Assembly (NCBI RefSeq): GCF_021431925.1
Contig: NZ_CP090371.1
Span: 992,001-1,056,000, forward strand
Source of the DNA: Halobaculum sp. CBA1158
GTDB lineage: Archaea; Halobacteriota; Halobacteria; Halobacteriales; Haloferacaceae
Length of the DNA stretch: 64,000 nucleotides
Direction of reading: 5' to 3'
In this document: one piece after another, positions 28,414-37,989 of the stretch
Position numbering within the stretch: the first letter of the stretch is position 1
How the letters are laid out: every line of letters begins with the position of its first letter
Notes under the pieces: generated by a model
The model's database searches: none
Seen by the model: the letters and a program-made list of their open reading frames with translations, nothing else
Told to the model about the DNA's origin: nothing
Program-made: the position numbers and the translations under genes

Positions 28414-31299
28414 ATGACGACCGACGCCGGCGGCATCGTGGGCGAGTTCCTCTCGCTGAAGGAGTCCACGGACGCGGACGTGCTCGCGATGCAGTGCGGC
28501 GACTTCTACGAGTTCTTCGCCGAGGACGCCGAACTCGTCGCCGACGAACTCGACCTCAAGATGTCCCAGAAGTCGAGCCACGGCTCCTCGTACCCGATGG
28601 CCGGCGTCCCCCTCTCGGAGCTGACCCCGTACCTGACGGCGCTCGTCGAGCGGGGGTATCGGGTCGCCGTCGCCGAGCAGTACGAGACCGACGACGGTCA
28701 CGCCCGCGAGATCGAGCGCGTCGTCTCCCCCGGCACCGTGATCGACCCCGACGGGGCGGCCGCCCGCTGGCTCGCCGCCGTCGAGCACGACCGCGCGGGC
28801 GAGCGCCCGTGGGGGCTCGCGCTCGCGGAGGTGACGACCGGCCGCTTCCACGCGGCCGCGCTGGAGGACCTCGACGCCGTGCGGGCCGAACTCCACCGCT
28901 TCGCGCCGGTCGAACTGCTCCCGGGACCCGGCGTCCGCGACGACGACGCCCGACTCGCGGAGCTCCGGGACGGAACGGACGCTCGACTCACGCTCCACGA
29001 GGCGGAGGCGTTCGCGCCCGGCCGCGCCCGCCACCGCCTCGGCGACCAGTTCGGGACGCAGGCGCTCGCGGCGGTCGGGCTCGACGCCGACCCCGCCGTC
29101 GCCGCGGCGGGCGCGGTGTTGCACTACGTCGAAGAGACGGGCGCGGGCGTCCTCGCGTCGATGACACGCCTCGGCGGGCTGGACCCCGGTGGACGCGTCG
29201 CGCTCGACGCGACGACCCAGCGTAACCTCGAACTCGTGGAGACGATGCAGGGGGAGCGCGACGGCACGCTTCTGTCGACGCTGGATCACACCGAGACGGC
29301 CGCCGGGAGCCGGCTGTTGCGCGAGTGGCTCACCCGCCCGCGACGCGACCGCGAGGAGTTGGAGCGCCGGGGCGCGGCCGTGGAGGCGTTCGCGAGCGCC
29401 GCCCTCGCTCGCGACCGCCTGCTCGACGCGCTCGACGGCACCGCCGACCTGGAACGACTCGCGGCCCGGGCGACCAGCGGATCGGCGGGCCCGCGCGACC
29501 TTGCGGCCGTCCGCGAGGCGCTGGGGAGGCTCCCGGAGCTCGCGTCGGCCATCGACGGCACCGAACTCGCCGACTCACCTGTGCCGGACGTGCTCGCGCG
29601 TCCCGACCAGGGGGCCGCACGCGAGCTTCACGACGACCTGGCGGCGGCGCTCGCGGCGGACCCACCGGGGAGTATCGGCGGCGACGGCGGCGTGATCGCC
29701 CGCGGCTACGACGAGGAACTGGACGGGCTGGTGACAGAGTACGAGGAGGCCGTCGAGTGGCTCGACGGGCTCGCCGAGCGCGAGAAGCGTCGGCACGACC
29801 TGAGTCACGTCACGGTCGACCGCAACAAGACGGACGGCTACTACATTCAGGTGGGGAAGTCCGTCGCGAGCGAGGTCCCGGACCACTACCGCGAGATCAA
29901 GACGCTGAAGAACTCCAAGCGGTTCGTCACCGACGAACTCGCCGAGCGCGAGCGGACGGTCCTCCGGATGGAGGAGCGCCGCGAGGAACTGGAGCGGCGC
30001 ATCTTCGAGGAGGTCCGCGACCGGGTCGCCGGCGACGCCGAACTCCTGCAGGACGTGGGCCGCGCGCTCGCCGAACTGGACGCGCTGGCCGCGCTGGGCC
30101 ACCACGCCGCCGCCAACGACTGGACGCGCCCCGAGTTCACAGACGGCGACGAGCTTCACATCGAGGCGGGGCGACACCCCGTCGTCGAGCAGACGACGGA
30201 GTTCGTGCCCAACGACCTCCGGTTGGACCGCGAGCGCGGATTCCTCATCGTGACGGGGCCGAACATGAGCGGGAAGTCGACGTACATGCGCCAGTGTGCG
30301 CTGATATCGCTGCTCGCGCAGGCCGGTTCGTTCGTCCCCGCCGACTCGGCGACGCTCCCGCTCGTCGACGGCGTGTACACCCGCGTCGGCGCGCTCGACG
30401 AACTCGCCCAGGGGCGGTCGACGTTCATGGTCGAGATGCAGGAGCTGTCGAACATCCTCCACTCGGCCACGGAGGACTCGCTGGTGATCCTCGACGAGGT
30501 CGGCCGCGGCACGGCCACGTACGACGGCATCTCCATCGCCTGGGCGGCGACCGAGTACCTCCACAACGAGGTGCGCGCGAAGACGCTGTTCGCGACGCAC
30601 TACCACGAACTGACCGCCCTGGCCGAGCACCTCCCCCGGGTCGCGAACGTCCACGTCGCCGTCGACGGCGAACCGAGTTCGCCGTCTTCAAGCGGGACTT
30701 CGTCCCGCACCGCCGAGGAGCGCGACGGCGTTCGCGGGAGCGAAGCTCCCGCGAGCCAACCAGAAACGCCCCGCGTTTCTGGTGACGACGTGACGTTCCT
30801 GCGTCGCGTGCGAGAGGGGCCGACGGACCGGAGCTACGGCGTCCACGTCGCCGACCTCGCGGGCGTGCCCGACCCGGTCGTCGGGCGCGCGGACGAGGTG
30901 CTCGACCGCCTGCGCGCGGAGAAGGCTATCGAGGCGAGAGGGTCGGACGCCGCCGGCGACGACGACGCTGACACCGAACAGGCGGTGTTCGACCTCTCGG
31001 CCGGCGAGTTCGTCGCGGAGGGCGACGACCGCGACGACGACGCGGACGCGACCACCGACGCCGCGGGTCGGTCGGGGACCGTCGCGGGCAACGGCACAGC
31101 GGCCGCGACGTCCGGCCGCGAGGCCGCAGACGACGCCGCCGGCAACGGACCGGGCGACGCCGTCGACGGCGGACCGACCCGCGACCCGGCGGCCGCGGCG
31201 GTCCTCGACGAGATCCGCGAGACCGACGTGAACGAGACGGCCCCGGTCGAACTGCTGACGAAGCTTCAGGAGTGGCAGGCGCGCCTCGAGGAGGAGTGA
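28414..31299 (+). CDS. mutS: DNA mismatch repair protein MutS
   Basis: Mismatch-recognition ATPase of 961 aa. Domain I has the mismatch-wedge motif GDFYEFF (~residues 30-36). Walker A is GPNMSGKST (~615), Walker B LVILDEVGRGT (~690-700), then FATHYHEL. Between VAVDGEP and DDVTFLRRV (residues ~755-790) there is an extra ~36-residue Ser/Pro/Thr-rich insertion that coincides with three DNA hairpins (see 30692-30783). A second non-conserved, Ala/Asp/Gly-rich linker (~855-930) precedes the C-terminal helix. The ATPase core is intact, so the protein should be active. All ATPase motifs precede the insertion. Confidence 0.95.
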   Translation: MTTDAGGIVGEFLSLKESTDADVLAMQCGDFYEFFAEDAELVADELDLKMSQKSSHGSSYPMAGVPLSELTPYLTALVERGYRVAVAEQYETDDGHAREIERVVSPGTVIDPDGAAARWLAAVEHDRAGERPWGLALAEVTTGRFHAAALEDLDAVRAELHRFAPVELLPGPGVRDDDARLAELRDGTDARLTLHEAEAFAPGRARHRLGDQFGTQALAAVGLDADPAVAAAGAVLHYVEETGAGVLASMTRLGGLDPGGRVALDATTQRNLELVETMQGERDGTLLSTLDHTETAAGSRLLREWLTRPRRDREELERRGAAVEAFASAALARDRLLDALDGTADLERLAARATSGSAGPRDLAAVREALGRLPELASAIDGTELADSPVPDVLARPDQGAARELHDDLAAALAADPPGSIGGDGGVIARGYDEELDGLVTEYEEAVEWLDGLAEREKRRHDLSHVTVDRNKTDGYYIQVGKSVASEVPDHYREIKTLKNSKRFVTDELAERERTVLRMEERREELERRIFEEVRDRVAGDAELLQDVGRALAELDALAALGHHAAANDWTRPEFTDGDELHIEAGRHPVVEQTTEFVPNDLRLDRERGFLIVTGPNMSGKSTYMRQCALISLLAQAGSFVPADSATLPLVDGVYTRVGALDELAQGRSTFMVEMQELSNILHSATEDSLVILDEVGRGTATYDGISIAWAATEYLHNEVRAKTLFATHYHELTALAEHLPRVANVHVAVDGEPSSPSSSGTSSRTAEERDGVRGSEAPASQPETPRVSGDDVTFLRRVREGPTDRSYGVHVADLAGVPDPVVGRADEVLDRLRAEKAIEARGSDAAGDDDADTEQAVFDLSAGEFVAEGDDRDDDADATTDAAGRSGTVAGNGTAAATSGREAADDAAGNGPGDAVDGGPTRDPAAAAVLDEIRETDVNETAPVELLTKLQEWQARLEEE
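30692..30783 (+). repeat. Three consecutive perfect hairpins inside mutS
   Basis: Hairpin 1: GCGGGAC-TTC-GTCCCGC (30692-30708). Hairpin 2: TCGCGGGAGC-GAA-GCTCCCGCGA (30732-30754). Hairpin 3: ACCAGAAACG-CCCCG-CGTTTCTGGT (30759-30783). All stems pair without mismatch. The block is in frame and translated as a low-complexity loop. It looks like a short palindromic repeat cassette of the kind scattered through haloarchaeal genomes, here inserted into a gene. Confidence 0.85.
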
Positions 31300-34999: not shown

Positions 35000-36268
35000 A
35001 TGGACATCGACGAACACGCCGAGGAGCTCGCCTCCGCCCTCGGCGAGGACACAGCGGAGGTCAAACGCGACTTGGAGAATCTCCTGGAGTACAGCGTCCC
35101 GATCGACGAGGCCAAGCAGTCCGTCCGCCGGAAGTACGGCGGCGGGGGCGGCGGCGACGACGCGACCCCCGAGTCCGTCGACATCGCTGAGATCACCACG
35201 GAGTCGGGCAACATCACCGTCACGGCGCGCGTGCTGACGGTCGGTCGGCGGTCGATCCGCTATCAGGGCGACGACACCGTCATCCGCGAGGGAGAACTCG
35301 CCGACGAGACCGGGCGGATCAGCTACACCGCCTGGCAGGACTTCGGCTTCGAGGCGGGCGACACCGTCACGATCGGCAACGCGGGCGTCCGCGAGTGGGA
35401 GGGCGAGCCCGAGCTCAACGTCGGGCAGTCCTCCTCGGTGGCGATGGAACAGGAGGCGCTCGACGTGCCGTACGAGGTGGGCGGCGGGCGCGACCTCGTC
35501 GACCTCGCGGCGGGCGACCGCGGCCGCACGGTCGAGGCGAAGGTGCTCGAGATCGAACAGCGCACCATCGACGGCCGCGACGGCGAGACGACGATCCACT
35601 CGGGCGTCCTCGGCGACGAGACCGCCCGGCTCCCGTTCACCGACTGGCAGGCCCGCGAGGCGGTCACAGAGGGCGCAGAGCTCCGCATGGAGGACGTGTA
35701 CGTCCGGGAGTTCCGCGGCGTTCCCTCGGTGAACCTCACCGAGTTCACCGAGGTGTCGCCCGCGAGCGTCGAGGTGAGCGACGAGGCCCCGCGCGTCGAC
35801 GTCGCCGAGGCGGTCGCCTCCGGCGGGATGTACGACGTCGAGGTGCGCGGCAACGTCCTCGAGGTCCGCGACGGCTCCGGCCTCATCGAGCGGTGTCCTG
35901 ACTGCGGGCGGCTCGTCCAGAACGGCCAATGCCGCAGCCACGGCCAGGTCGAGCCCGAGGACGACCTCCGGATCAAGGCGATCCTCGACGACGGCACGGC
36001 GACCGTCACCGCGATCCTCGACCGCGACCTCACCGAGGAGATCTACGGCGGCACTCTGGAGGACGCCCTCGAGGCCGCCCGCGACGCGATGAGCCGCGAG
36101 GTCGTCGCCGACGAGATCAGCGAGACGCTCGTGGGACGCGAGTACCGCGTGCGCGGACACCTCTCGGTCGACGAGTACGGCGCGAACCTCGACGCGACGG
36201 AGTTCGCCGCCAGCGACGAGGACCCGAGGGCGCGTGCCGCCGACCTCCTCGCGGAGGTGGGCGCGTGA
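35000..36268 (+). CDS. rpa1: Single-stranded DNA-binding protein, RPA large-subunit type
   Basis: Replication protein A homologue of 422 aa, coating ssDNA in replication and repair. Three OB folds: ~65-160 (ITTESGNITVTARVL), ~170-255 (RGRTVEAKVLEIEQRT) and ~275-390, the last with a zinc finger C-P-D-C ... C-x-x-H (~298-314, RCPDCGRLVQNGQCRSHG). This architecture matches Haloferax Rpa1, and the order rpa1-rpap1-phosphoesterase is that of the Haloferax rpa1 operon. The start at 35000 is preferred over 34958 because the latter lies at the TATA element. Confidence 0.93.
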   Translation: MDIDEHAEELASALGEDTAEVKRDLENLLEYSVPIDEAKQSVRRKYGGGGGGDDATPESVDIAEITTESGNITVTARVLTVGRRSIRYQGDDTVIREGELADETGRISYTAWQDFGFEAGDTVTIGNAGVREWEGEPELNVGQSSSVAMEQEALDVPYEVGGGRDLVDLAAGDRGRTVEAKVLEIEQRTIDGRDGETTIHSGVLGDETARLPFTDWQAREAVTEGAELRMEDVYVREFRGVPSVNLTEFTEVSPASVEVSDEAPRVDVAEAVASGGMYDVEVRGNVLEVRDGSGLIERCPDCGRLVQNGQCRSHGQVEPEDDLRIKAILDDGTATVTAILDRDLTEEIYGGTLEDALEAARDAMSREVVADEISETLVGREYRVRGHLSVDEYGANLDATEFAASDEDPRARAADLLAEVGA

Positions 36269-37989
36269 GCTCCAGCGACGCGAACGGCGACGACGGAAGC
36301 GACGACAGCGGGCCAGGAACTCGGGAGGTCGCCCACCGCGTGTTCGCCGCGGAGTTCGACGACGCCGACCTCGACCACTCCGAGAGCGACGAGGAGCGCG
36401 CGCCGAACTACGTCGTCACCCCGACCGGCCTGCGCGTCAACCGACTGTTCGCGGTCGGCGTGCTCACGGAGGTCGAGTCCGTGAACGAGCAGACGCTGCG
36501 CGGTCGCGTCGTCGACCCGACGGGCGCGTTCGTCACCTACGCCGGCCAGTACCAGCCCGACGAGGCGGCGTTTCTCGACCGGACGACCCCGCCGGAGTTC
36601 GTCGCACTCACGGGGAAGGCGCGGACGTTCGAGCCCGACGACGCCGACGTGGTGTACACCTCGGTCCGGCCCGAGAGCCTCGCGACCGTCGACGCCGACA
36701 CGCGCGACCGCTGGGTCGTCTCCGCCGCCGAGGCGACGCTCCGCCGGATCGCGGTGTTCGCAGCCGCGCTCGAGGCGGACGAGCGCGGCGACGACCTCCG
36801 CGTCCGCCTCGAGAACGCCGGCGTGCCGACGGCGCTCGCCGCCGGAATCCCCCTCGCGATCGACCACTACGGTACCGGCGCGCGCTATCTGGAGGCGGTC
36901 CGGACGCTCGCCGTCGACGCGCTCGAAGTCGTCGCCGACGAGCGCGAGGAGGTGGGTGACCTGACGGCCGACCCCGCCGACACCGGCGCGGTCGAGCTCG
37001 GTCCGCTCCCCGAGGTCCCGTACGACCTCGAGGCCGCGAGCAGTCCTGATATCGCAGCCGGCGACGCCTCCGACGTTACCGACGCCGATGTCGACACCGA
37101 CGCGGACGCCGACGCCGACGCGGCCGACACCGACGCGGCCGACACCGACGCGGCCGCGGAACCGGCCGAAGCGGCCGGGCTGGACACGGACGCCGACGCC
37201 GAGGCGGATTCGGGTGTGGATGCGACACCCGAATCTCCGGAATCGGCGGACGCGACCGAGACCGAGTCCGCGAGCGAGGATCCGACCGAGGAACTCGACG
37301 ACTTCGACGCGGGAGACGGCGGTGTCGCTGGCGACGCCGACGACGACGGTGTCGGGGGCGGCCCGGACGACGCCCTCGGAGACTTCGAGGCGGGAGACGA
37401 CGACCCCCTCGAGGACTTCGACGCCGGCGACACCGACCCGGAGGACATCGAGAACGCGATCACCGAGGAGGAGCGCCGCGAGGTCGAGGAGGAACACGGC
37501 GTTGAGTTCTCTACTGGGAGCGAGGTTCCCGGTCCCGGCGAGGTGGACATCGAGACGCCGGATCCGGACGCGACCGACGCCGGCGATGACCGCGATCCGG
37601 GCGACCCCGATGCCGAACCCGAGACGGGAGGCGCTGGAACCGAGCCGACGACCGGGGCGGACTTCGAACCCGACGCCGCCGGCGAGGTAGATGACTCGGC
37701 GGTCGACGAGTCGATCGACGAGCAGACCGGCGACGCCGTCGACGACGACGCTGATGACGCCGTCGACGCCGCTGACGGCACCGACGACGCTGACGTGGAT
37801 CTGGAGACGGCGGTCGTCGACGCGATGGCGACCCTCGACGACGGCGACGGGGCCGACCGCGAGGCGGTCGTGGCGGCGGTCGTCGACGACCACGGCGTCG
37901 ACCCGAGCGACGCTGAGGACGCGATACAGGAGGCGCTGATGAGCGGAAAGTGCTACGAGCCGGCCGACGGGACCCTCAAGCCGATCTGA
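36265..37989 (+). CDS. rpap1: RPA-associated protein (COG3390) with long acidic linker
   Basis: Partner of Rpa1, 574 aa, starting at GTG inside the rpa1 stop (GTGA overlap). The N-terminal ~250 residues hold the conserved OB-fold region (APNYVVTPTGLRVNRLFAVGVLTE, RGRVVDPTGAFVTYAGQYQ). Residues ~265-510 are a very acidic Asp/Ala/Glu linker with D-A-D and A-A-D-T-D repeats. A C-terminal ~65-residue winged-helix-like domain closes the protein (AVVDAMATLDDG ... SGKCYEPADGTLKPI). The linker is long for the family. Confidence 0.9.
   Translation: MSSSDANGDDGSDDSGPGTREVAHRVFAAEFDDADLDHSESDEERAPNYVVTPTGLRVNRLFAVGVLTEVESVNEQTLRGRVVDPTGAFVTYAGQYQPDEAAFLDRTTPPEFVALTGKARTFEPDDADVVYTSVRPESLATVDADTRDRWVVSAAEATLRRIAVFAAALEADERGDDLRVRLENAGVPTALAAGIPLAIDHYGTGARYLEAVRTLAVDALEVVADEREEVGDLTADPADTGAVELGPLPEVPYDLEAASSPDIAAGDASDVTDADVDTDADADADAADTDAADTDAAAEPAEAAGLDTDADAEADSGVDATPESPESADATETESASEDPTEELDDFDAGDGGVAGDADDDGVGGGPDDALGDFEAGDDDPLEDFDAGDTDPEDIENAITEEERREVEEEHGVEFSTGSEVPGPGEVDIETPDPDATDAGDDRDPGDPDAEPETGGAGTEPTTGADFEPDAAGEVDDSAVDESIDEQTGDAVDDDADDAVDAADGTDDADVDLETAVVDAMATLDDGDGADREAVVAAVVDDHGVDPSDAEDAIQEALMSGKCYEPADGTLKPI

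Follow-up and report, generated by a model that had tools for sequence, protein, structure and literature searches.

Two palindromic dimers inserted in frame in a haloarchaeal mutS gene and the dispersed family to which one of them belongs

In its architecture, the element analyzed here comes closest, among the kinds described so far, to bacterial REP dimers with CGTC tags (Di Nocera et al., 2013, PMC3733652). These repeats are pairs of short perfect hairpins, also found as heterodimers, with stems of 8-9 bp, loops of 4-5 nt, a tail that is mostly CCA, and unpaired CGTC tags on the outside (head-head). They are mostly intergenic and sometimes in frame in genes, notably in DNA repair genes, and no dedicated transposase is known for them; archaeal repeats and mutS are both absent from the main text of that study. 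In terms of function, the nearest analogues would be the palindromic elements of Rickettsia and Wolbachia (RPEs), which are described in passages of PMC3733652 and PMC10969869 as palindromes of about 150 bp that repeatedly entered unrelated functional proteins in frame and added a short segment that is missing from empty homologues. In REPINs, two inverted hairpins form one mobile unit that is mobilized by RAYT, an IS200-like TnpA, and a phylogenomic study detected no subclass of Y1 transposases other than IS200 in Archaea (PMC6006769). Short, non-autonomous, dispersed MITEs are mentioned for Haloquadratum and Halobacterium in a passage of PMC10969869. A 2025 survey of REPs, in which intergenic regions were searched, covers archaea, and its main text contains no word starting with "halo" (PMC12306157). 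The literature searched, whose scope ended at subscription journals, contained no account of protein-coding palindromes from Archaea.

The window, a haloarchaeal, GC-rich stretch of 64,000 nucleotides from a genome of 3.32 Mb in 4 contigs (G000), contains a mutS gene whose coding sequence extends from the ATG at 28414 to the end of the stop codon at 31299 and whose product matches the E. coli MutS in the PDB with an E value of 3e-154. The relevant features, in window positions, are the following.

28414..31299, + strand: mutS, MutS1-type mismatch-repair ATPase, with an ORF that is intact despite both inserts (NF003810 equivalog, 891.6 bits)
30661..30711, + strand: insertion 1, 51 bp coding for 17 residues (VDGEPSSPSSSGTSSRT), a palindromic dimer of H0 and H1 with the linker TTCAA
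30664..30686, + strand: hairpin H0, perfect, stem 10 bp, loop CGA
30692..30708, + strand: hairpin H1, perfect, stem 7 bp, loop TTC
30729..30730, + strand: left CG tag or target dinucleotide; CG at this position in 116 of 120 parsed copies of the family, although absent from the search pattern
30730..30786, + strand: insertion 2, 57 bp coding for 19 residues (VRGSEAPASQPETPRVSGD), a member of a dispersed haloarchaeal dimer family
30732..30754, + strand: hairpin H2, perfect, stem 10 bp, loop GAA
30753..30758, + strand: linker GAGCCA, constant in the element alignments (and contained in the search pattern); its initial GA closes H2
30759..30783, + strand: hairpin H3, perfect, stem 11 bp, loop CCC
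30786..30787, + strand: right CG tag (TGACG; CGTC on the other strand), contained in the search pattern and seen in the empty-site comparisons

The hairpins in mutS are genuine and far beyond chance. With stems of at least 10 bp and loops of 3-8 nt, the gene has three perfect hairpins, whereas 300 shuffles of its synonymous codons produced 0.33 on average and never more than 2, which rules out pure chance or codon bias as their cause. RNA folding of the hairpin block had a z-score of -8.7 and that of the 57-bp unit one of -8.1; with DNA folding, z was likewise -8.1, and no shuffle was as good in either case. The preliminary description had placed three perfect hairpins at 30676-30790. Two of these are present as described (H1 with 7 bp and TTC, H2 with 10 bp and GAA), the third has an 11-bp stem with the loop CCC rather than 10 bp with CCCCG, and a fourth hairpin at 30664-30686 had been cut by the start coordinate. 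The stem of H3 consists of the usual 10 bp and one additional A-T pair, as a result of which the 57-bp unit amounts to 19 codons while the stem is still perfect. More perfect hairpins, with stems of 10-11 bp and loops of 7-8 nt, are found in neighboring coding sequences of the window at 35724-35753, 36763-36789, and 37207-37235; they look like ordinary coding repeats outside the mutS element family.

Comparison with relatives resolved the inserted region into two parts, which add 17 and 19 residues, and thus the 36 residues that had been estimated, to a single surface loop of MutS. At the mutS site, nine congeners without either insert read ...HVAAEERDG-DVTFL..., and the mutS of the congener G006 contains only insertion 1 (...VDGEPSSPSSSGTSSRTAEERDG-DVTFL). 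The site of insertion 2, which in the window lies between GACGGC and GACGTG, is empty in ten congeners, G006 among them; as alternative limits, this insertion can be read as TTC...TGA at 30731-30785, flanked by two CG dinucleotides. Overall, the mutS DNA of G000 and G006 is 85.5% identical, with 97% identity across the H0-H1 query, and H0-H1 was either gained in a lineage common to both or transferred between these two. The inserts are two separate events that involved two different palindromic dimers, and the 57-bp insert is the later one. The idea that mutS had captured a palindromic repeat with the frame kept is thus upheld by the empty sites and by the dispersal of the repeat, mostly outside genes, except that there were two captures and not one. 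Close relatives lack the insert at exactly that point, and none of those compared had the same residues encoded by unpaired DNA.

The alignment with E. coli MutS is interrupted by the inserts at 747/752, in a short turn after the THYFEL motif, and the insertion site would correspond to the turn of residues 748-751 beside the ATPase domain. To the left and right of the inserts, the conserved motifs of MutS are preserved. An AlphaFold2 prediction of MutS from a 21-sequence alignment reached a mean pLDDT of 60.6, with the ATPase half mostly below 50, and was too poor for the loop. The length of this loop varies in haloarchaea, with VDGEP... variants in G012 and G039, and most likely the effect of the inserts on MutS is near-neutral. 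In Halobacterium salinarum, deletions of mutS1A and mutS1B caused little change in mutation rate (PMC2816208), which makes it plausible that MutS tolerates the inserts and leaves the earlier designation of mutS as essential unsupported.

When 40 relatives were searched at the DNA level, many genomes showed partial matches, and G009 had a 78-bp match at 99%. The strict signature, consisting of the GAGCCA linker, the second hairpin, and GACG, was detected in 94 of 394 Halobacteriales genomes and in 38 of 95 genera, with 0 hits for the reversed pattern that served as a control. A scan with one genome per species yielded at least 80 loci, and among the matches listed nearly all were from haloarchaea, chiefly Halorubrum; 2.9 million viral contigs were searched and contained no copy. 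Genomes have 0-20 strict copies, the highest number being 20 in one genome of g13, and the window's own genome has a single one. The 146 copies that were parsed have the consensus CG-TTC-[arm NNN arm]-GAGCCA-[AYCAGAA.. NNN ..TTCTGRT]-GACG, with stems mostly of 10 bp and loops mostly of 3 nt in both hairpins. Every parsed copy has the order hairpin-linker-hairpin with CG tags outermost, in a search that was limited to dimers with the GAGCCA linker. At the left end, the 116 conforming copies read CG(T/A/G), and the right end, TGACG (CGTC on the other strand), is contained in the search pattern. Most copies are outside genes (129 of the 146 sampled were not clearly intragenic), and the suspicion that the H2-H3 string might be a dispersed repeat is thereby confirmed. 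The dominant unit length is 55 bp outside genes, and the gene-internal copies have 54 or 57 bp. The congener G005 (L073) has the same element core as Halobaculum saliterrae (L122), which makes Halobaculum the most likely genus of the window.

The paired positions of the second hairpin covary; at pair 31/51, for example, 56 distinct copies have T-A and 38 have C-G. Over the structure, 150 two-sided pair changes were counted in 95 distinct copies, as compared to a mean of 44 and a maximum of 60 in 500 shuffles, a comparison that ignores kinship among copies. This evidence relates to the second hairpin, since the first hairpin differs in length among copies and was parsed separately, and it indicates that base pairing and not the peptide is conserved.

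Intragenic copies were called by a codon-usage score that was trained on the long ORFs of the loci. This score placed 17 copies inside genes and in frame, each of them in sense orientation. The requirement for one frame on both sides builds in part of the preference for lengths divisible by three, and a symmetric test with free left and right frames, which does not have this bias, gave 16 frame-keeping and 2 frame-breaking copies (L101, L102) and 0 independent antisense copies. Hosts with Pfam assignments include NAD-dependent DNA ligase, acyl-CoA dehydrogenase, PurK, P-type ATPase, carboxyl transferase, molybdopterin oxidoreductase, M20 and S9 peptidases, a macro domain protein, and TnpB. Judged from sequence, the family repeatedly inserts in frame into unrelated protein genes. 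In the ligase gene (L097, G169), a second DNA repair/replication host, the element is in frame in the helix-hairpin-helix region. The N-terminal part of a tnpB-like gene (L047:1470-1545, G031) holds an in-frame, more symmetrical dimer of two ACCAGA/TCTGGT hairpins with tags on both sides, and its hairpin matches H3 of mutS with 97%.

Filled and empty sites were also found in two peptidase genes. The S9 peptidase gene contains the element in G007, with intact hairpins, and in G003, where the second hairpin has decayed and the frame is kept, and it is empty in six congeners. In the M24 peptidase gene of G007, a 45-bp dimer with the H1-like end GCGGGACTTCGTCCCGCAC is present in frame, and the site is empty in ten congeners, which indicates that the H0-H1 type is a mobile palindromic dimer as well, of a second kind. 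This second, H1-like dimer type in the M24 peptidase gene was recorded as L250 (G007:C1:2336764-2336798; GCGGGACTTCGTCCCGC). At the mutS and S9 sites, TTC...TGA may have entered at CG with duplication of 2 bp or, equally well, as a plain insertion, and no clear target-site duplication beyond CG was seen at the compared sites. A 4-bp GACG duplication was considered and discarded, as it would account for the S9 site only and disagrees with mutS (GGCG/GACG).

Our main reading, to which we assign a probability of about 0.8, is that short, mobile, non-autonomous palindromes entered one exposed MutS loop in two successive events and that the 57-bp unit represents a family dispersed through Halobacteriales. 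In this mechanism, an enzyme supplied in trans would recognize the hairpins in their folded state, probably in single-stranded DNA, and the unit would be inserted at CG-containing targets in a way equivalent to a 2-bp CG duplication. Copies in genes would survive only if their length is a multiple of three, the peptide is hydrophilic, and the site is a surface turn, and the tolerated orientation would yield the hydrophilic peptide V-R/H-x-S...S-Q-x-E...S-G/D-D. The element would gain persistence, and the host would gain 36 loop residues. The abundance of Y1 (IS200-type, PF01797) transposases was rejected as a sign of the mobilizer, as it did not correlate with copy number in 20 genomes; G066, for example, has 9 copies and no Y1 gene, and G268 has 3 Y1 genes and no copy.

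The strongest alternative concerns the 78-bp match in G009. There, a mutS paralogue with 45-48% protein identity to the window's mutS contains the identical 57 bp at the homologous codon, and both the mutS of G009 and the paralogue of G000 are empty. The locus of the G009 paralogue is 96.5% identical to the empty G007 locus, and the insertion in G009 is therefore recent. A recent event had also been proposed for mutS, in agreement with its perfect stems and with the same 57 bp being present without mismatch in two species. The sharing between G000 and G009 reflects either a double insertion at one target or recombination across about 12 bp of flank identity. It is possible, although we lean against it, that the 57 bp entered one mutS-type gene only once and then spread by gene transfer and conversion via the short identical flanks, with no transposition at this place. 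The identical codon position would be accounted for in this way, as would the exact insert/DVTFL junction, found in these two of 394 genomes only, and the lack of any other identical copy in G000 or G009. However, the flanks belong to each gene, with a common identity of only about 12 bp on the left and 11-13 bp on the right, and the dispersal to unrelated genes still requires a mobile origin. That a site-preferring palindrome hit the same codon of two mutS paralogues independently in two species, with mutS-type genes as a preferred landing site, appears rather unlikely to us. The mutS paralogue of G006 (G006:C1:1542437-1544986) was matched in several separate stretches and may have diverged or be damaged.

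The 3' end of tnpB, before the right end of the insertion sequence (IS), is where omega RNAs are encoded, and about 15 copies of the unit are at just this place. Together with the mostly noncoding location of the copies and the covariation of the second hairpin, this would fit an origin as functional RNA (a 3' end, a processing signal, or an omega-RNA scaffold part of IS605-type tnpB transposons), with the mutS copy as an accident of dispersal. We consider this decidedly unlikely, as most copies do not adjoin tnpB, arms and loops vary freely, and an Rfam search of the window and 20 family loci gave no relevant match above the gathering score; moreover, the tnpB copies belong to few recurrent IS types and may be one insertion that was copied with the IS. 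A tRNA/tmRNA search detected unrelated tRNAs only. The unit at the 3' end of tnpB (Cas12f1-like/OrfB_IS605) is found in at least two IS types (L128:3846-5075, L084, L086, L096, L148, L208, and others). A conserved block, ACGTGCGTGTGAATGGTGGGACGTTC...GACGTTGAACGGCRAGAGTCACC, surrounds the element in L083, L084, L094, L128, L129, L136, L154, L161, and L216 from several haloarchaeal genera, and these blocks are probably copies of one IS. The tnpB copies make an IS605-linked origin worth testing and do not demonstrate it. Finally, the surface loop, which is of low complexity and Ser/Pro-rich, could have drifted in the ordinary way while selection acted on the protein, with the hairpins as a by-product of GC-rich codons. 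This would suit the variable loop length in haloarchaea but is highly improbable in view of the shuffle results, the recurrence of the same DNA unit, in differing frames, both in unrelated genes and between genes, and the clean gap in relatives.

Like the CGTC-tagged REPs, the haloarchaeal family consists of head-head dimers with outside tags, as far as the GAGCCA-linked dimers that were searched are concerned, and it has multiple, mainly extragenic copies, up to 20 per genome, with one strict copy in the window's genome. Other features in common are the pairing of short perfect hairpins, also as heterodimers, and the occasional in-frame copies within genes. The right end reads TGACG, which is CGTC on the other strand and part of the search pattern. 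The family differs from these REPs by its archaeal host, by its low copy number (0-20 with the strict pattern), by a left tag CGTT, by stems of 10-11 bp and loops of 3 nt, and by TGGCTC, the complement of GAGCCA, where the tail is read from the CGTC tag. Because stem length, loop length, and tail differ, we do not file the family as a CGTC-tagged REP. As in RPEs, there is repeated in-frame insertion into unrelated genes with empty homologues, here with empty sites in the mutS, S9, and M24 genes; the unit of about 57 bp belongs to another domain of life, and the likeness to RPEs, as they are portrayed in the passages cited, is one of function only. As in REPINs, two inverted hairpins act together as a unit; no RAYT could be linked to the family from the Y1 counts per genome, which do not track its copies. 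In contrast to haloarchaeal MITEs, it is only about 55 bp long and has neither IS terminal inverted repeats nor a clear target duplication.

Protein-coding palindromes are known in Rickettsia, Wolbachia, and REP-rich bacteria, and the haloarchaeal family works likewise in Archaea. DNA repair genes recur as hosts. They are mutS, its paralogue, and ligA here, and the survey of bacteria lists uvrABCD, recBCD, dnaE2, and DNA polymerase I, which constitutes a parallel between two domains of life. As haloarchaea are genetically tractable, both the movement of the element and the relevance of the peptide are directly testable. Should mutS indeed be a preferred landing site, mismatch repair or the barriers to recombination may be modulated by the element.
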